Assembly (NCBI GenBank): GCA_012034615.1
Contig: JAAUPA010000010.1
Location: 1-42,857, forward strand
Direction of reading: 5' to 3'
DNA: 42,857 nt
Source of the DNA: Leptolyngbyaceae cyanobacterium CSU_1_4
GTDB lineage: Bacteria > Cyanobacteriota > Cyanobacteriia > Elainellales > Elainellaceae
In this document: piece after piece, positions 25,179 through 34,057 of the stretch
Layout: every line of letters begins with the position of its first letter
How positions within the stretch are numbered: position 1 is the stretch's first letter
Notes under the pieces: generated by a model
The model's database searches: none
Told to the model about the DNA's origin: nothing
The model's input: the letters and a program-made list of their open reading frames with translations, nothing else
Made by a program: the position numbers and the translations under genes

Positions 25179-26360
25179 TTAGCTCCTATCGACTGTTCCT
25201 AAATATTTCCGTACCACTGTCAACACCTTGTCCGCATCCACAGGTTTTGAGAGAAACCCACTAGAACCCACAACCTTGGCGCGAACCCGATCTATGATGC
25301 CGTCGTTGCTGGTTAAAATAACAATTGGCGTATCTTTAAATACAGCAACGCGCCGAATTTGCGAACAAATCTCGTAGCCACTGGCGATCGGCATCACCAA
25401 GTCTAAAAAGATGACTCCTGGCTTTTGCTCTAAAAGTGTGGGTAAAGCCTGCATTGAATCTTGAATGCCAATGAACCGATAGCCCGCTTGGGTCAAAATT
25501 TTTCCCATCGTGTCGCATTCTCGTTTGCTGTCGTCAATGCAAACCACAAGGGGAGCCGATGGTAGCGCAGATTGAACACCCGAGGTTGGAATAGAAGAGA
25601 CTGGCATCGCCTCCAGCCCATTTGCCACTGGAGAAGGAAAGTCAGGAACGGGAATCAATCCAATAAAACCTTTGCGAAAGTACGGAACTAACATCCGGGT
25701 CAAAGGCACGAGATCTTGCTTCATCAGCACTGCCAAGTCGCGGAGCGATCGCTTCCCATCTGCCAGAGCCACAAGGGTTTTATAGATTTTTTCAGAAGTC
25801 TGCTGCTGTAAAAGTTCCTGTTGTCGCAGGATGGGCGCTAGGCTGGGCGAATGATCGACTAGCCCCAAAGCCCGCCACTCATTCCAAATCGGCTGAACTT
25901 CATCCAGAAGCTGTTGGGCATTAACAAGTGCTAAAGCTGCATCCAACACATCTTTAGGATCAACTTTAAAGTTAACAAATCGGGTTTCTTCTTGTTGAAG
26001 AACGTCAAACAAAACATCAGACACGATGCTGCGAATGAGAGCAACCGTTTGCTCTACCGTAATCTTTTGCTGTTTAACCAAGCTGATTAGAATGTCATAG
26101 TCCCAACGTTGGATATTGCCCGATGCTCCAAATGTAACGGCTTGGGCATTAATTTGAGGACAATGACGGGATAAATTTCGATACCAGCGCCGCACAGGAT
26201 GAGGACCACCCGATGCCCAAATTAAGCGCCCCATGTAGAGATAAAGGCTCCATTTCTGGTCATTTGCCTCTGTATCAAGCCTTCCGGTAAGATGCAAGCG
26301 ACTTTGGACACCAAGTAACCCACTTGGCATATCAGCAGATGAGTGATCGACCCCTATCAT
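25179..26360 (-). CDS. pixG: PatA/PixG-family response regulator with PATAN domain
   Basis: This 393-residue protein has the PATAN/DUF4388 N-terminus typical of cyanobacterial PatA, PixG and TaxP regulators: SRLHLTGRLDTEANDQKWSL, YLYMGRLIWASGGPHPVRRW, RWDYDILISLV. A linker (about 235-265) leads to a C-terminal receiver with VVCIDDSKRECDTM, IFLDLVMPIASGYEIC and LSKPVD. In phototaxis systems such proteins act on type IV pili at the cell pole. It is the first gene of the six-gene minus-strand operon, and the start at ATG 26360 has only a weak ribosome-binding site. The upstream region is shared with gvpA. Confidence 0.85.
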   Translation of the reverse strand: MIGVDHSSADMPSGLLGVQSRLHLTGRLDTEANDQKWSLYLYMGRLIWASGGPHPVRRWYRNLSRHCPQINAQAVTFGASGNIQRWDYDILISLVKQQKITVEQTVALIRSIVSDVLFDVLQQEETRFVNFKVDPKDVLDAALALVNAQQLLDEVQPIWNEWRALGLVDHSPSLAPILRQQELLQQQTSEKIYKTLVALADGKRSLRDLAVLMKQDLVPLTRMLVPYFRKGFIGLIPVPDFPSPVANGLEAMPVSSIPTSGVQSALPSAPLVVCIDDSKRECDTMGKILTQAGYRFIGIQDSMQALPTLLEQKPGVIFLDLVMPIASGYEICSQIRRVAVFKDTPIVILTSNDGIIDRVRAKVVGSSGFLSKPVDADKVLTVVRKYLGTVDRS

Positions 26361-26750
26361 AATATTTAATTACCATTCAAAGCGGTACAACAATTAATAC
26401 AAACGTCAGCAGACAGACCCATTACATCGCTGCATAAAACTTCCCTATCTAGACAAGTTACCTAATTGCAAAGCAAAGAGAAATTCAATGTTTGCCATTA
26501 GTTCAGACTTGTTAATCTAGGCTTCAGGAACCTTAACTAATAGACTGCCCACTTCTTGAAATAAGCTAACCAAATGAAGAGACTTCTGTGAGAGAAAAAA
26601 TACGAAATCTAACGTTACAAAACTCAGCAATGTTAGCTCTATTTGAAACCTGGGAAGGATGTACATATCTCTGTTTTGAGAGAAATGCCTGCCGATTGAG
26701 AAAGGCATCTATCAATCCCCCAACAATCATTTTAAAATTAGGTGACTAAC
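26361..26750. promoter_or_regulatory. shared intergenic region between phototaxis operon and gas vesicle cluster
   Basis: About 390 bp separate the divergent starts of pixG and gvpA. The sequence is AT-rich. A minus-strand frame of 63 codons at 26517-26708 has no start signal or motif and I do not count it as a gene. AGGTGA seven bases before gvpA is its ribosome-binding site. Promoters of both operons must lie here, but I could not assign boxes with confidence. Confidence 0.5.
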
Positions 26751-26969
26751 ATGGCTGTCGAAAAAGTAAACTCTTCCTCTAGCTTGGCTGAAGTCGTCGA
26801 TCGCATTCTTGATAAAGGAATTGTCATTGACGCTTGGGTTCGGGTCTCTCTCGTCGGAATTGAGCTGCTAGCAATTGAAGCTCGGGTTGTAATTGCCTCG
26901 GTTGAAACCTACCTGAAGTATGCTGAGGCCGTGGGCCTAACCTCGCAAGCTGCTGTTCCTAATGCATAG
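26751..26969 (+). CDS. gvpA: gas vesicle structural protein GvpA
   Basis: This 72-residue protein is the main wall-forming protein of gas vesicles: [20 protein letters not shown] and [20 protein letters not shown] are the two helix-strand segments that make the ribs. The start is ATG 26751 ([15 protein letters not shown]) with AGGTGA upstream. A GTG three codons earlier is in frame but less likely. Only one gvpA copy is present, whereas many cyanobacteria have several. A hairpin follows the gene, which fits a high ratio of gvpA message to downstream genes. Confidence 0.97.
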
Positions 26970-26978
26970 GTGACTGCA

Positions 26979-27017
26979 TAGCCTCATTAGATAGCAATCG
27001 TCTATTTAATGAGGCTA
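26979..27017 (+). terminator. hairpin between gvpA and gvpC, partial terminator or mRNA stabiliser
   Basis: Arms TAGCCTCATTA (26979-26989) and TAATGAGGCTA (27007-27017) form a perfect 11-bp stem with a 17-base loop. No long T tract follows (AATTCTTAACATTTATT), so it is a weak terminator at best. It may cap and stabilise a short gvpA transcript. Confidence 0.65.
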
Positions 27018-27045
27018 ATTCTTAACATTTATTGGGAGGAAGTTC

Positions 27046-28176
27046 GTGAGTTCTCTTAAAGCCTCTTGGCAAACACAAAAAAATCAGCGGCAGCAAGAAT
27101 TGCTACAACGGCAACAACAAGTCCGCAAATCTTTAAATAGATATCAACAAGAGCGTCAGGCAAAAGCTGCTGTATTGCGTCATGATCTCAACCTGTTTCA
27201 GCAATCTCTTCAGCAAGAAACTCAAGATTTTTTAATTGATGTTAGCCTCGATCGCCAACTGCGATCGGAGCAAGTCATTCATCAGCTTCATGCCTTTACT
27301 CAAGCCTTACAGCAGCAAACCGCCGATTTTTTAGAAGTCACTGCTGCCGATCGCTCTTTAATGTCTCAAGAGCTTACTCAAGACTTATCGGCATTTCATG
27401 CTGGACTGAATCATTCAGTGCAAGTTTTGCGAAAGAATCTACACGTCCAGATGGAACACCTCCACTCAGAGACTCAGGTTTTTCTAAAGAAGTGCCAAGC
27501 ACAACGCCAGCAGCAGCAACTGGATTTGATGCAAAGTTTGGCAATTTACATTGCGTCATTGCAAGAGCAAGTCCAAACCTATTTAGCAGAACTGGAGTTA
27601 GGACGGCAAGAACGAGGGCAACAGATCAGACAGATGTTGCAGGAAAGCCGCGATCGCCGTTTAACAGAAACAGCAGAACTATTCCAACAGTTCTCAGAGT
27701 TTCGCACTGAACTAAGATCGTATTGCGATCGCCTTCATGAAACCGTTTGGGGCAAATCTCAAGCCATTCAGCCCTTAGAATCTACGCTTCAAAAGCCCGC
27801 TATGCTGAGGAGCGATCGCGCCACAAAAGCAGTTTCTGCACCAGTGCCTGTTACTCAACCTGTTGCTCAACCCAGCAAACTATCTGCAACTCAAATCCTT
27901 AGCAACCCACCTTTAGTTACTGTAGCACCTATCAAAGCTGTTGCTGTTGCGCCACACCAACCTGTACCGTCTGCCTTACAGCAAGATGATGAGCTACTCG
28001 AGCAAAAGATTTATAGCTACATTAAGCAAATTGAGGGTGCCCGGCTGACTGAAATTCAGTCTGCTTTGGGTATTAATCGTTCACAGACGGTTGATAGTCT
28101 GCGCGCCTTAATTAAAAAAGGTTTGATTACACAGCGCGATCGCGTTTATTTAGCTCAAGAGGAAATTTCTCTGTGA
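27046..28176 (+). CDS. gvpC: gas vesicle outer-surface protein GvpC with C-terminal winged-helix domain
   Basis: GvpC binds the outside of the gas vesicle and stiffens it. The start is GTG 27046 with GGGAGGAAG upstream. Residues 1-235 are an all-helical, Gln-rich array of about 33-residue repeats (for example [20 protein letters not shown] and [20 protein letters not shown]). Residues about 240-310 are a Pro/Ala/Val linker. Residues about 317-376 are unusual: [20 protein letters not shown] and [20 protein letters not shown] look like a small winged helix. The same domain ends GvpN. The total of 376 residues is much longer than the roughly 190-residue Anabaena GvpC. The stop overlaps the gvpN start (GTGA). 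Confidence 0.85.
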
Positions 28177-29471
28177 CTACTGTTCTAAAAGCCAATCCCC
28201 GGCAATTCGTTAACACTCCTGCCATTCAGCGAGTCGCTACCCGTGCCTTGCGTTACCTGCAATCGGGGTATTCTGTGCATCTACGAGGACCTGCTGGCAC
28301 CGGAAAAACCACGTTGGCGCTGCATCTTGCTGACCTGCTGGCACGCCCTATCATGCTAATGTTTGGTGATGACGAGTTCAAAACCTCAGATTTAATTGGT
28401 AACCAAACGGGTTACACCCGTAAAAAAGTCGTTGATAACTTTATTCACAGCGTTGTTAAAGTTGAGGATGAACTGCGTCACAACTGGGTTGATTCTCGCC
28501 TAACTTTGGCTTGCCGAGAAGGTTTCACGCTGGTTTATGACGAATTCAATCGATCGCGCCCCGAAGTTAACAATGTTTTGCTCTCGGCGTTAGAAGAAAA
28601 ACTTTTGGTTCTGCCGCCCAACAAAGATCGATCGGAATATGTCCGAGTTAGTCCTCATTTTCGGGGCATTTTTACCTCCAATCCTGAAGAATACTGCGGG
28701 GTTCATTCTACCCAAGATGCTTTACTCGATCGCCTGATCACCATCAATATCCCTGAACCCGATGAACTAACGCAGCAAGAAATTGTGGTTCAAAAAACAG
28801 GGATTGATCGAGAAAGCGCCGTAGCAATTGTGCAAATCGTCAAAGCATTTCGCAAAAGAACAGCGAATGAAAGATCATCAGGCTTGCGATCGTGTTTGAT
28901 GATTGGCAAAGTTTGCCATGAACACGAAGTTATGGTGATGCCAGAAAACGCAGAGTTTCGAGATATTTGCCAAGATTTGCTGCTCTCTCGTACAGCCTTA
29001 CCCTTAGAGGAAGCCACTCATATTTTATGGGAAATCTTTAACGGGTTCATTGCCAACGACGTGCTTCAGGTTTCTATGGCGATCGCCCTTCATGATGATC
29101 TGGATGTACCCGTTCCTGAATTCAATGAGATTGCTCTCAGCGAAATAGTGCAATCGATTCCAGGCGATCGTCTGGCAATTTTCAATGACTTAATGAATCT
29201 AGACGACTCGCCCGAACTCAGCCTTAATTCTGGTGATCTCGATTCTGTTGAGGTCATAGACGAGATCTTGCTCGTTCCCTATCAACAGGAAATCTACGAA
29301 TATTTGCAGCAACAGCAGGAAGCGCGCCCGTTTGAAATTCAGTCTGCATTAGGGATTAAGCGATCGGACGTGGCAAACGCGCTGCAAGCTTTAACTGCTA
29401 AAGGGCTAACCATTCCTCAAAACAATTTCAAAAAGCAGTCATCGTACCGCATTCATACTTTAGAGGAATAA
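28173..29471 (+). CDS. gvpN: gas vesicle protein GvpN (AAA+ ATPase) with C-terminal winged-helix domain
   Basis: GvpN is a MoxR/CbbQ-like AAA+ ATPase needed for gas vesicle growth. Walker A is [15 protein letters not shown] (about residues 39-53), Walker B and following region is [20 protein letters not shown], and [20 protein letters not shown] is the sensor 1/arginine-finger region. The gene starts at GTG 28173, overlapping gvpC by four bases. At 432 residues it is longer than the ATPase core. The tail (about 368-432: [40 protein letters not shown]) is clearly homologous to the C-terminus of GvpC. Confidence 0.92.
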
Positions 29472-29477
29472 CTCACC

Positions 29478-29804
29478 ATGACTGCATCCCCCGCAGGTCG
29501 CGCTATTACAACGTCCACCCAAGGCTCTAGTTTGGCAGATGTGCTGGAGCGCGTGCTAGATAAAGGCATTGTCATTGCTGGAGATATTTCTGTTTCTGTG
29601 GGTTCCACCGAACTCCTGAGCATTCGGATTCGGTTGCTCATTTCATCAGTTGACAAGGCAAAAGAAATTGGGATTAACTGGTGGGAAAGTGATCCGTATC
29701 TCAGCAGTCAGTCGCAGCAAATGCTTGAAGCCAATCGTCAATTACAAGCAAGGATTGAGAGTTTAGAAGGTCAATTAAAAGTTCTTAGCGGTGAATCGGC
29801 ATGA
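29478..29804 (+). CDS. gvpJ: gas vesicle protein GvpJ
   Basis: This 108-residue GvpA-related protein has the core SSLADVLERVLDKGIVIAGD and ELLSIRIRLLISSVDKAKEI, followed by GINWWESDPYL, typical of GvpJ. The C-terminal 35 residues form a short coiled coil (NRQLQARIESLEGQLKVL). GvpJ is a minor component thought to act at the conical tips or in nucleation. It starts 6 bp after gvpN and overlaps the next small frame by four bases (ATGA). Confidence 0.92.
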   Translation: MTASPAGRAITTSTQGSSLADVLERVLDKGIVIAGDISVSVGSTELLSIRIRLLISSVDKAKEIGINWWESDPYLSSQSQQMLEANRQLQARIESLEGQLKVLSGESA

Positions 29805-29977
29805 TCAGCGTTAAAGCGATTAAACAAGTGTCAACCAGCCAAACAATTTCCAGTTTTCAAGCTATGTCTAGCATGAGGCAAAGCTCTAGCCGAGCTATAG
29901 ATCGGGGAAGAATAGCGGTTGGGTATAGTCAAAGGGTGAACCATGAAACGCGCCGCCAAATTCGTGTAAACCAATGA
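29801..29977 (+). CDS. small basic protein between gvpJ and gvpK (gvpX position)
   Basis: A 58-codon frame starts at ATG 29801, overlapping the gvpJ stop as ATGA, and ends 38 bp before gvpK. It reads MISVKAIKQVSTSQTISSFQ at the start and ends in a strongly basic tail (HETRRQIRVNQ). Of 58 residues about 11 are Arg or Lys and about 13 are Ser. The coupled start argues that it is translated. Some cyanobacterial gvp clusters have an extra small gene, called gvpX, near this place, but I cannot confirm homology from memory. The function is unknown. Confidence 0.55.
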   Translation: MISVKAIKQVSTSQTISSFQAMSSMRQSSSRAIDRGRIAVGYSQRVNHETRRQIRVNQ

Positions 29978-30015
29978 ACGATCGGAGCGCGGTTTTATCT
30001 CGAACCGAGGGTTGA

Positions 30016-30504
30016 ATGTCTCTGACAAATTCTCAAATTCAAGCGATGCCTGCGAGGGATTTTGAGGTATCCCAAATTGAGGCACCCCAAAAGAAAGATG
30101 CAGGGCTGGCTCCGCTGCTGCTAACGGTGGTGGAACTGGTGCGGCAATTGATGGAGGCACAGGTAATTCGGCGAATGGAGTCGGGTGATTTGAGCGAATC
30201 TGACTTAGAACGGGCGGCAGAAAGTGTGCGTAAGTTAGAGGAGCAGGTTATCAATCTGTGCAAAATATTTGAAATTGATCCGGCTGATCTCAATATTGAT
30301 CTGGGCGATATTGGCACCTTATTTCCTCAGTCTGGAGGCTACTATCCGGGCACTCATTCGGCAAATCCATCAATTCTAGAATTGCTCGATCGCCTCCTCA
30401 ATGTAGGAATTGTAGTGGAAGGAAATATTGATTTAGGGCTGGCTCAAATCAATTTAATTCATGCAAAGCTACGACTTGTATTAACTTCTCAGCCCATTGG
30501 CTAA
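30016..30504 (+). CDS. gvpK: gas vesicle protein GvpK
   Basis: This 162-residue protein has the GvpK signatures GLAPLLLTVVELVRQLMEAQ and VIRRMESGDLSESDLERAAE. A C-terminal GvpA-like segment follows (SILELLDRLLNVGIVVEGNI, LAQINLIHAKLRLVL). GvpK is required for assembly. The protein closely resembles cyanobacterial GvpK in length and sequence. The first 30 residues are variable. Confidence 0.92.
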   Translation: MSLTNSQIQAMPARDFEVSQIEAPQKKDAGLAPLLLTVVELVRQLMEAQVIRRMESGDLSESDLERAAESVRKLEEQVINLCKIFEIDPADLNIDLGDIGTLFPQSGGYYPGTHSANPSILELLDRLLNVGIVVEGNIDLGLAQINLIHAKLRLVLTSQPIG

Positions 30505-30596
30505 GCACAAAAAGTAAAGGTCGAAATAATACGAGATGAATGTTTGAGGAGATTGCTGGGTAGCCTCATAGGGACGCGATCGCTCTAGGTGAATGT

Positions 30597-31331
30597 ATGG
30601 GATGCGGACTTTATTTATACGGTATTTTTCCAGCTACAGCGCTTCATAAAATAACGCTAGAGGGACTCGATTGCCAACCTGTTCAGTCCCATACCCTGAA
30701 CGACTTTACCTTTCTCTATTCTGAGGCGCAACAGAACAGATATTTAGCTAGCCGTCGTAATTTGCTAGGACATGAGCGGGTTCTGGAACAGGCAATGGAG
30801 CAGGGATATCGGACATTGTTACCGTTGCAGTTTGGGCTGATTGTGGAGGATTGGACGACGGTTGAAAGTCAGTTAATTAAAACTCAGAAGGAGAACTTGA
30901 AGAATCTTTTTTCTAAGTTGGAAGGGCGACGAGAAGTCAGCGTTAAGATTTTTTGGGAAGCCGATCGGGAGTTGGAAGATCTAATGCGGGAGAATGAGGG
31001 GTTGCGGACTGAGCGCGATCGCTTAGAAGGGCAGTCGCTGAGTATGGATCAGATTGTGAAAATTGGGCAGGCGATCGAGGCGGAAATGGTTGGACGAAAA
31101 CAGGATATTATTCAAGCCTTTCAAGAGACGTTAAACCCGTTGGCGATCGAACAGATTGAAAATGATTTGTTGACAGACAGCATGATTTATAACGCGGCTT
31201 ATTTGATTCCTTGGGAGGCAGAACCCGAGTTTAGTGAGCAGGTGGAAGCGTTGGATCTGCGGTTTGAGGAGCGTTTGCGGATTCGGTATAACAACTTTAC
31301 TGCGCCATTTAACTTTGCACAGTTGGTGTGA
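30597..31331 (+). CDS. gvpF: gas vesicle protein GvpF (GvpF/L family)
   Basis: This 244-residue member of the GvpF/L family begins GLYLYGIFPATALHKITLEG. It continues with LGHERVLEQAMEQGYRTLLP, LQFGLIVEDWTTVESQL and a coiled coil (ELEDLMRENEGLRTERDRLE). The C-terminal end DLRFEERLRIRYNNFTAPFN is a family hallmark. GvpF is an accessory protein that interacts with GvpA early in assembly. The ATG at 30597 is chosen, with a modest AGGTGA upstream. Only one F/L gene is present. Confidence 0.92.
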   Translation: MGCGLYLYGIFPATALHKITLEGLDCQPVQSHTLNDFTFLYSEAQQNRYLASRRNLLGHERVLEQAMEQGYRTLLPLQFGLIVEDWTTVESQLIKTQKENLKNLFSKLEGRREVSVKIFWEADRELEDLMRENEGLRTERDRLEGQSLSMDQIVKIGQAIEAEMVGRKQDIIQAFQETLNPLAIEQIENDLLTDSMIYNAAYLIPWEAEPEFSEQVEALDLRFEERLRIRYNNFTAPFNFAQLV

Positions 31332-31446
31332 GGGGACGTTATTGACGCAGATGGAAAGACTCTACCTCATCTCTTCTGAAGAAAAGGGACTTAGAAGGGT
31401 TTGCAGGGATTGATAGTCTTTGGTTTTTTATTCCTTGGGGGTTCTG

Positions 31447-31746
31447 ATGTTTTTTGATTTATTGACGGCACCTTTTACGGCTCCCCTGAGCGGGATTGCT
31501 TGGATTGGTGAAAAAATATTGGAGAGAGCCAGTACGGAACTGGATGAAACGGAAAACTTGAACAAGCGGCTGTTGTCGTTGCAACTGGCGTTTGATATGG
31601 GTGACATTTTGGAGGAAGAGTTTGAGGAGCAGGAAGAGGCGTTGCTGTTGGCAATTCAGGCGCTGGATGATGAGATGAGGGCGGCAGAGCGGGAGGCAGC
31701 AGAGCGGGAGGCAGCAGAGCAGGAGGCTGAAGAGCCGCAGGATTGA
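31447..31746 (+). CDS. gvpG: gas vesicle protein GvpG
   Basis: This 99-residue protein starts at ATG 31447 with GGGGG seven bases upstream, giving MFFDLLTAPFTAPLSGIAWI, the conserved GvpG N-terminus. A long acidic helix follows (LNKRLLSLQLAFDMGDILEE), and the tail is Glu/Ala-rich and repetitive (REAAEREAAEQEAEE). GvpG acts with GvpF and GvpA in assembly. It is the last gvp gene here. The gvpV and gvpW genes that follow gvpG in some cyanobacteria are absent from the window. Confidence 0.88.
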   Translation: MFFDLLTAPFTAPLSGIAWIGEKILERASTELDETENLNKRLLSLQLAFDMGDILEEEFEEQEEALLLAIQALDDEMRAAEREAAEREAAEQEAEEPQD

Positions 31747-31769
31747 ATCTACAATATTGAATCTACAAT
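31742..31769. repeat. 14-bp perfect tandem duplication at the gvpG stop codon
   Basis: ATTGAATCTACAAT occurs twice in tandem. The first copy contains the gvpG stop codon. Confidence 0.9.
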
Positions 31770-31792
31770 AGGGAGAGATTTTCTAGTAATTC

Positions 31793-34057
31793 ATGCTAAC
31801 TCCTCCCTCAAATTCAGTCTCTTCAGGTTTCTATCGGTTGCATGAACAGGTGCAGCGGTGGATTTGGGAACAGCGTTGGGCGGAATTGCGCGATATTCAA
31901 GAACGGGCGATCGCCCCTATTCTAGCAGGCACCACCGATTTGATCTTGGCGGCAGCGACGGCAGGCGGTAAAACTGAGGCAGCGTTTTTGCCGATTTTTT
32001 CTAAGCTGGCTGAGAATGCTTTAGATACTTCTAAGGCTGGAATTCAGGTTTTGTCCTTGAGTCCACTGAAGGCATTAATTAATGATCAACATTATCGCTT
32101 ATCTGAACTGGGAGAACGATTGGAGATTCCCGTTCATGCGTGGCACGGAGATGTGGGTTCAGGACGGAAGCAGCGGCTGGTAAGGAATCCTACAGGAATT
32201 TTATTAATTACGCCAGAGTCATTAGAGGCGATGTTCACAGGCAGAGGACAGGATCTAACCAGAATTTTTGCGGCGTTACAGTACGTCGTGGTGGATGAGT
32301 TGCATTCGTTTATTGGAACGGAGCGGGGACAACAGTTGCGATCGCTGCTACACCGTTTAGAACAGTCGCTCGATCGCCGCATTCCTCGTATTGGACTTAG
32401 TGCTACGCTAGGAGAAATGAATTTAGCAAAAGATTATTTACGCGCCGGAGAGTCTGATTTAGTTCAATTAATTCAATCATCTGAAGAAGGTCAGGAGATT
32501 AAATTACAGATTCGAGGATATCGAAAAGCTGCGCCTGATCTTTTTATTGATGACATTAATCAGGAACGCGAGGCAGAATATTCTAGGAACGAAATTGATA
32601 TTGCTAAACATCTGTTCAAAGTGCTGCGAGGCGAGAAAAATTTGATTTTCATTAACCGCCGCCAAGATGTAGAGCAATACGCCGACTGGTTAGGACGGCT
32701 GTGTGACGATCATCGGGTGCCTCATGAATTTATGCCCCATCATGGCAGTTTATCGAAGGAGTTGCGAGAGGCGGCAGAGGAGGCACTGAAAGAGCGCGAT
32801 CGTCCTGCCAATGTCATTTGTACTTCCACTTTAGAGTTAGGAATCGATATCGGTTCGGTAACCTCGATTGCCCAAATTGGCACGCCTTATTCTGTGGCTA
32901 GCACTCGGCAGCGATTGGGGCGATCGGGGCGGCGGCAGGGCGATCCGGCGATTCTGCGGATTTATATTACTGAGCCAGAGATCACGCCGTCTACCCATCC
33001 TGAAGCGACCTTACATCCCTCGTTAGTGCAGGCGATCGCGATCATTCATTTGCTGTTGCAGGGTTGGTATGAACCGCCGATAGTGGGTAAGCTTCATCTC
33101 TCCACCCTGATTCAACAACTGCTTTCTTTGATCGCTCAGTATGGCGGAGTCCGACCGGATCAAGCTTGGAATATTCTTTGTAAATGCGGGGCTTTTAAGG
33201 CGATCGATCAAGCCATTTACATTCAATTATTGCGATGTTTAGCAGCAAAAGATTTGATTCAACAGAGCCAGGAAGGGCTATTGCTGTTGGGCTTGAACGG
33301 CGAGCGCATTGTTAATCACTACAGCTTTTATACGGCGTTCAAAACCTCTGAAGAATTTCGGATCACAACGGCAGGCAAAACCCTGGGAACCTTACCGATC
33401 GATTCACCGCTCACCGAAGGACTGCTGCTGATTTTTGCGGGCAAGCGCTGGCAAATTTTGTCGGTAGACCGCGAACATCGGGTGGTCGATGTGGTGCAGG
33501 CTTCGGGCGGCAGAGTGCCCTACTTTGGTGGTGAGCCGGGAAGCATTCATGACCAGGTGCGGCAGGAGATGTTTCGGATTTATGGCTCTGATGTGATTCC
33601 CGCTTTTTTAGATGCAACGGCGCGAGATTTGCTGCTGGAAGCCCGAACCAACTTTGCGGCGTACCGTTTGGCAAATAACTTTTGGTTGGAGAATGGGCGA
33701 CAAACCATCCTGTTTCCGTGGCGAGGAAGTTTGGTGATGAATACGCTGCTCGTGCAATTGTTGGCGAACGATATTTCGGTGGAGCAAGGGGCGATCGCTC
33801 TTACGGTCAGCCTTCCGGCGCAAGATCTGTGGAAGCGTTTGAAAAAAATGGCAGCGGCAAAACCACCGGATGCAGTGAACCTTGCCGCTACAGTCAGCAA
33901 CAAAATCAACGAGAAGCATGATCTGTTTTTAGATGAAGATCTGCTGTGTCAAAATTATGCTGCTAGCCATCTAGATGTACCGAGCACCTGGGAAATGCTG
34001 CGGCAATGGATGAATGCAGGAAACCTTACCCATTCAACCAACGGGCTGCATCTTTAG
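31793..34057 (+). CDS. Lhr-like DEAD/DEAH-box helicase
   Basis: This 754-residue superfamily 2 helicase has the Q-region ([20 protein letters not shown]), motif [15 protein letters not shown], motif Ia [11 protein letters not shown], motif [10 protein letters not shown], motif [11 protein letters not shown], motif [21 protein letters not shown], motif [14 protein letters not shown] and motif [10 protein letters not shown]. The C-terminal 300 residues resemble the Lhr-type winged-helix and beta-barrel region. Lhr-like helicases unwind DNA and RNA-DNA hybrids in repair. It follows the gvp cluster by 46 bp on the same strand but has no known link with gas vesicles. Its 3' end overlaps that of hemB by 32 bp on the opposite strand. 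Confidence 0.82.

Follow-up and report, generated by a model that had tools for sequence, protein, structure and literature searches.

The window, by which we mean the whole stretch of 42,857 nucleotides of contig JAAUPA010000010.1 from Leptolyngbyaceae cyanobacterium CSU_1_4, contains a gas vesicle cluster with a short reading frame lying between gvpJ and gvpK. The features of the locus are listed below.

26742..26969, + strand: gvpA, 75 aa; NF006874, 137.5 bits.
27046..28176, + strand: gvpC-like gene, 376 aa; TIGR02641, 17.5 bits, just below the cut-off of 18.8.
28173..29471, + strand: gvpN, 432 aa; TIGR02640, 394.6 bits.
29478..29804, + strand: gvpJ, 108 aa; PF00741, 58.5 bits; top NCBIfam match GvpJ, under the cut-off.
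29801..29977, + strand: gvpX-type small gene, 58 aa, ATG start, pI 12; from the ORF listing and relatives, without a Pfam or NCBIfam family.
29801..29804, + strand: ATGA overlap of the gvpJ stop and the small-gene start, read from the sequence.
29801..29863, + strand: conserved start of the small protein, 21 residues, family consensus MITIKTMKQIATSRTIPSFRS; from alignment A1.
29888..29974, + strand: basic tail of the small protein, helix H30-57 in a low-confidence model; from alignment A1.
30016..30504, + strand: gvpK, 162 aa; PF05121, 110.6 bits; C-terminal GvpA-like stretch, PF00741, 50 bits.
30597..31331, + strand: gvpF, 244 aa; NF052351, 380.2 bits.
31420..31746, + strand: gvpG, 108 aa; PF05120, 77.7 bits.

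The GvpA-like PF00741 domain of the window GvpK occupies residues 119-157, at its C-terminus. The C-terminal ends of the gvpC-like protein and of GvpN are both winged-helix-like (TrmB/MarR-type matches, under curated cut-offs), a tail of DNA-binding type thus being common to two adjoining gas vesicle proteins. Elsewhere in the same genome, on other contigs, are a gene resembling gvpV (E 1.3e-13) and another member of the GvpF/L family (109 bits). An RNA element at the locus was ruled out, as no Rfam family reached its gathering score within positions 26000-32500, and consensus promoter or terminator sites between gvpJ and gvpK did not exceed shuffled sequence by more than about one standard deviation, with none on the + strand of the interval.

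The 58-residue frame at 29801-29977, described in an earlier note on this DNA as an overlooked small basic gene, is an open frame on the + strand with an ATG start. The earlier note placed this start inside the gvpJ stop codon. The two do overlap, as ATGA, with the A of the ATG just ahead of the TGA at 29802-29804, so the start is not wholly inside the stop. The frame does end just before gvpK, its stop finishing at 29977 with 38 nt left to the gvpK ATG at 30016. The predicted protein contains 11 Ser, 10 Lys+Arg and 2 Asp+Glu residues (computed pI 12.0). The mere presence of a 58-codon frame in this interval is not significant by itself; a 109-codon frame is also present in the same stretch on the opposite strand. 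At E <= 1 the window protein had no family in either Pfam or NCBIfam, the Pfam search finding no PF00741 domain (the GvpA/J/M/S shell family) in it, and its best four matches among solved structures (E 0.4-0.75) were to an unrelated human or animal protein. Across 12 members of the family described below, Pfam matched three mutually unrelated families in one member each (best E 0.007) and NCBIfam none.

The evidence that the frame is a gene comes from its relatives. With the window protein as the sole query, tblastn at E <= 0.01 found matches in 12 of the 40 genomes searched, the window's own genome among them with a single match, at the gvp cluster; the best non-self match (7.7e-19) was in the sister species G001. 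Every one of the 12 matches sits a short distance upstream of gvpK and is read in its direction, and gvpJ was located upstream of the relative in 11 of them, the exception being G036. One further relative, in G027, was recognized by inspection, and another, L066 (Leptolyngbyaceae cyanobacterium CSU_1_3), was found together with an ATGA overlap; the scan of named genomes yielded three loci only, its confirmation having relied on the first row alone. In the 12-row alignment A1, the start of the protein is conserved (consensus MITIKTMKQIATSRTIPSFRS), the middle is variable, and the tail is basic with shared DR.R and RRQW-like positions, being truncated in the window copy.

A profile built from the 12 relatives of A1, window included, gave 80.9-112.2 bits for the long forms of the gene. 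Although 12 of these 13 long forms are themselves profile rows, G036 lies outside the rows and scores 80.9 bits. Among control fragments, the full profile gave at most 13.6 bits over 1,926 reversed sequences and at most 9.2 bits over 19,260 shuffled ones; for a start-only profile of 21 columns the respective maxima were 7.3 and 9.0 bits. In a six-frame scan of 94 loci, no minus-strand fragment of the gvp stretches matched the full profile at E 0.1. A candidate in G367 (18.6 bits with the full profile, without a start-only match) looks like a low-complexity repeat and was not counted. G415, at 10.6 bits, falls within the range of the reversed controls and is counted as doubtful, retained because of its position and its ATGA overlap. 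The small frame is therefore a genuine gene belonging to the cyanobacterial gas vesicle cluster: the tblastn check proposed in the earlier note, with its 12 matches among 40 genomes (the window's own counted) that each lie upstream of gvpK, and relatives beyond chance expectation bear out its claim of a real gene, a conserved protein-coding frame coupled to gvpJ.

The loci scanned came from GvpK-bearing genomes, 45 of 60 relatives and 56 of 386 genomes drawn from the phylum, eight of them shared, which gives 93 genomes and 94 loci, with G310 contributing two; 75 of these loci have an identified gvpJ. We found 13 unbroken long forms, one broken form (G001), seven Microcystis-type forms (see below), G310 and the doubtful G415, so that some form of the small gene is present in 23 of the 94 loci and 71 are without trace. 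Among the 40 genomes searched with tblastn, all 12 matched genomes carry GvpK and none of the five GvpK-less genomes matched. In the phylum draw, at least six of 386 genomes, all with GvpK and two of them marginal, have a relative, and none of the 330 GvpK-less genomes does; the figure of six is a lower bound because at most 16 candidates were scored per genome and Microcystis-type starts were missed. In the genomes examined, the small gene is located exclusively upstream of gvpK. Within the window's own family, GvpK occurs in 29 of 36 genomes and the small gene in seven, leaving 22 of the 29 GvpK bearers without trace. On a tree of gvpJ and gvpK with 92 tips, the 23 bearers require 12 changes, against a mean of 20.9 and a minimum of 17 in 500 shuffles, and the presence of the gene therefore follows ancestry. 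As the place is identical each time and presence tracks ancestry, we read the gene as an old one that has been repeatedly lost. The earlier note had chosen beforehand, as its refuting test, a lack of conservation in relatives with the same gene order; there the frame is conserved in a minority and lost in most.

A gene at the same place has a name in Microcystis. All seven GvpK-bearing genomes of genus g66 in the phylum draw have a frame that overlaps the end of gvpJ and begins MIPVRTMKHIPQMREIP. We take g66 to be Microcystis because the GvpF of one of its genomes, G147, differs from PDB chain 4qsg_A at 7 of 244 positions, 4qsg being, as we assume, Microcystis aeruginosa GvpF. A solved structure of Microcystis aeruginosa GvpF is described in the literature. 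The Microcystis-type frame has 102-108 codons and carries the GvpJ tail a second time in its later part, where 45 of 72 aligned residues are identical to the GvpJ of a same-genus genome. With the start-only profile made from the long forms, all seven Microcystis-type frames score 16.9-17.1 bits and G310 scores 18.8, against controls of no more than 9.0; with the full profile, the values are 18.3-20.3 bits and 19.6 bits, respectively. Published work describes gvpX in Microcystis, named since 2004, at the place of the window gene, with the order gvpJ-X-K in Microcystis and gvpJ-K in Anabaena flos-aquae, and reports a joint gvpJ-X RT-PCR product in Microcystis (PMC6362013); in the review literature, GvpX is called somewhat similar to GvpJ and is placed among the non-essential proteins. 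On account of its position and its likeness to GvpJ, the Microcystis-type frame should be the published gvpX, a match made by description.

The window gene is accordingly a short gene of the gvpX type that lacks the GvpJ-like tail, a variant and not a new kind of system. Both it and Microcystis aeruginosa GvpX, compared here through the frames of genomes whose genus was inferred, lie between gvpJ and gvpK, overlap the end of gvpJ and share a related first 17-21 residues; they differ in that the Microcystis protein ends in a copy of the GvpJ tail whereas the window protein ends in a basic tail. A shared origin of the window protein with GvpJ received nothing from hhalign, which compared the small-gene family with GvpJ (probability 0.1%, E 0.47). 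The GvpX of Serratia sp. ATCC 39006 has the name in common and is likewise reported to be dispensable for vesicle formation, a comparison by description only; in the gene order given in a review, it sits between gvpK and gvpA3, unlike the window gene. The description of the frame as overlooked thus stands for the short form, which has no Pfam or NCBIfam match, and falls for the position, for which the Microcystis literature cited above has a gvpX dating from 2004.

Three direct copies of a unit made up of the gvpJ tail and the small-gene start follow gvpJ at a spacing of about 250-275 nt in L119/G147 and L120/G285, and second, degenerate start copies in Microcystis-type genomes score 9.7 bits, just over the start-only control maximum of 9.0. 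G310 has two gvpJ-gvpK loci (L093 and L108), one of which lies beside the Microcystis clade on the gvpJ+gvpK tree. Since G310 itself is assigned to a different family, transfer of the gas vesicle cluster is suggested. Because this locus adjoins the Microcystis clade, the G310 start is not independent evidence. We tentatively suggest, while giving it slightly less than even weight, that the short form is ancestral in an old, often-lost accessory gene, that Microcystis gvpX would be a later chimera of its start with a tandemly duplicated gvpJ tail, and that the start would be the working part. If so, the GvpJ likeness of Microcystis GvpX would be a by-product of duplication.

The small gene is fast-changing, and its constraint is weak in the window genus. 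Between the window and G001, the sole other genome of that genus found, the small frame has dN 0.167 and dS 0.393 (dN/dS 0.42, 51 codons) and gvpJ has dN 0.010 and dS 0.451 (dN/dS 0.02, 108 codons); the tail part of the small frame taken separately gives 0.57 (0.188/0.329). In the same pair, the small proteins are 67% identical, the GvpJ proteins 99% and the GvpK proteins 93%. The G001 copy has an in-frame TGA at codon 20, seen in a single assembly of a single genome; the remainder of that frame is still recognizable. A one-base length difference near the 3' end gives the window protein last residues unlike those of G001. For Microcystis-type frames past the gvpJ stop, dN/dS is 0.41, and for gvpJ 0.10; their overlap with gvpJ has only two variable sites, both in one genome, which are synonymous in the small frame and change GvpJ, a number too small to carry weight. 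From these ratios and the stop in the sister species, the small gene is weakly held wherever it was measured. In the codon-substitution check proposed earlier, dN is below dS, and the ratio of 0.42 against 0.02 for gvpJ indicates weak constraint. The absence of the small gene from 71 of 94 loci, the sister stop and this same difference in dN/dS together make it dispensable.

These observations bear on a serious rival explanation, that an ancestral gvpX-type gene has lost its role in the window genus and may be decaying there, the window frame still being open by chance or through recently relaxed constraint. The stop at codon 20 of the sister copy, the low identity of the small protein beside gvpJ and gvpK, the dN/dS values for the whole frame and its tail, the early end and altered last residues of the window copy, and the 22 GvpK-bearing family members without trace are all in keeping with it. 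However, the window frame is fully open and has kept the DR.RI..GY and RRQ positions along with the conserved start, dN is still lower than dS, and the sister stop comes from a single assembly. We regard decay as the less likely account, if one to be taken seriously.

The account that we consider fairly probable is that the frame is a genuine short-form gene of the gvpX kind, made as a by-product of gvpJ translation, whose product is a non-essential helper on the GvpJ/GvpK/GvpF complex. We infer that translation is coupled to that of gvpJ, that the tail is helical, what the product would bind and how it would affect assembly. The ATGA overlap suggests a ribosome restart after gvpJ: ribosomes finishing GvpJ would restart on the small frame through the overlap, and the small protein would be a minor by-product of gvpJ translation. 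The same overlap occurs in G001, G038, G415 and L066. Among the 15 genes listed, nine start 29-230 nt past the end of gvpJ and seven have AGGA within 20 nt upstream of the start, the window gene having only GGTGAA; given these starts and AGGA sites, coupling to gvpJ is not the rule. An AlphaFold model of the window protein, based on four sequences, has helices H4-11, H17-26 and H30-57 (mean pLDDT 64.1, pTM 0.29); only the last helix is moderately confident, with the last 19 residues at about 80, and the basic tail probably forms a helix. The product would most likely sit on the GvpJ/GvpK/GvpF assembly complex, adjusting vesicle assembly and not enabling it. The earlier claim of a real accessory protein therefore keeps its first half, a real gene in the cluster; the accessory role is an inference weakened by the non-essential status given to GvpX in a review, the sister stop and the 71 loci without trace.

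It is improbable that the frame serves translation only, carrying ribosomes from gvpJ to gvpK and keeping the message intact with an irrelevant product. While the overlap, the position and the wide variation of gap lengths among genomes would fit such a role, it needs no conserved product, and in fact many families share a conserved start that scores above all controls; moreover, 38 nt separate the frame from gvpK in the window, elsewhere it can be far from both neighbours, and the majority of clusters do without it. A chance frame that is no gene, as its shortness and its codon-position GC (0.45, 0.48, 0.41, without the pattern of neighbouring gvpK at 0.62, 0.35, 0.42) might suggest, is hardly credible and already refuted for the family by relatives that many families carry at this position and that score far over reversed and shuffled controls, and for the window copy taken singly it merges with decay.

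The gvpJ-gvpK interval also houses a second small family, which we call Y, of 47-60 codons with the core DSEHYRQMLVRDGERRFREWHTAFLKYQK. It lies between gvpJ and gvpK in nine compared loci (bearers G004, G010, G022, G026, G027, G029, G172, G182 and G415; also L054 to L064) and was found somewhere in 9 of 40 relatives, all nine with GvpK. Y is doubled in G029 and lies C-terminally in a 234-codon frame of G032; it was not found in the window genome. Like the window gene, it is short, often sits between gvpJ and gvpK and has no Pfam or NCBIfam match, and it is the more conserved of the two. A shared origin with the window protein was rejected (hhalign E 0.21 over one column).

Gas vesicle clusters are mined and trimmed for ultrasound reporters, which makes the question of which accessory genes count a practical one. 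A small gene with a conserved start and frequent losses, unmodelled in annotation libraries, offers an inexpensive candidate tuning factor, and it would account for the GvpJ-like look of Microcystis GvpX. The picture of how vesicles are constructed is unchanged, and the gene is a modest addition to the known gene set.
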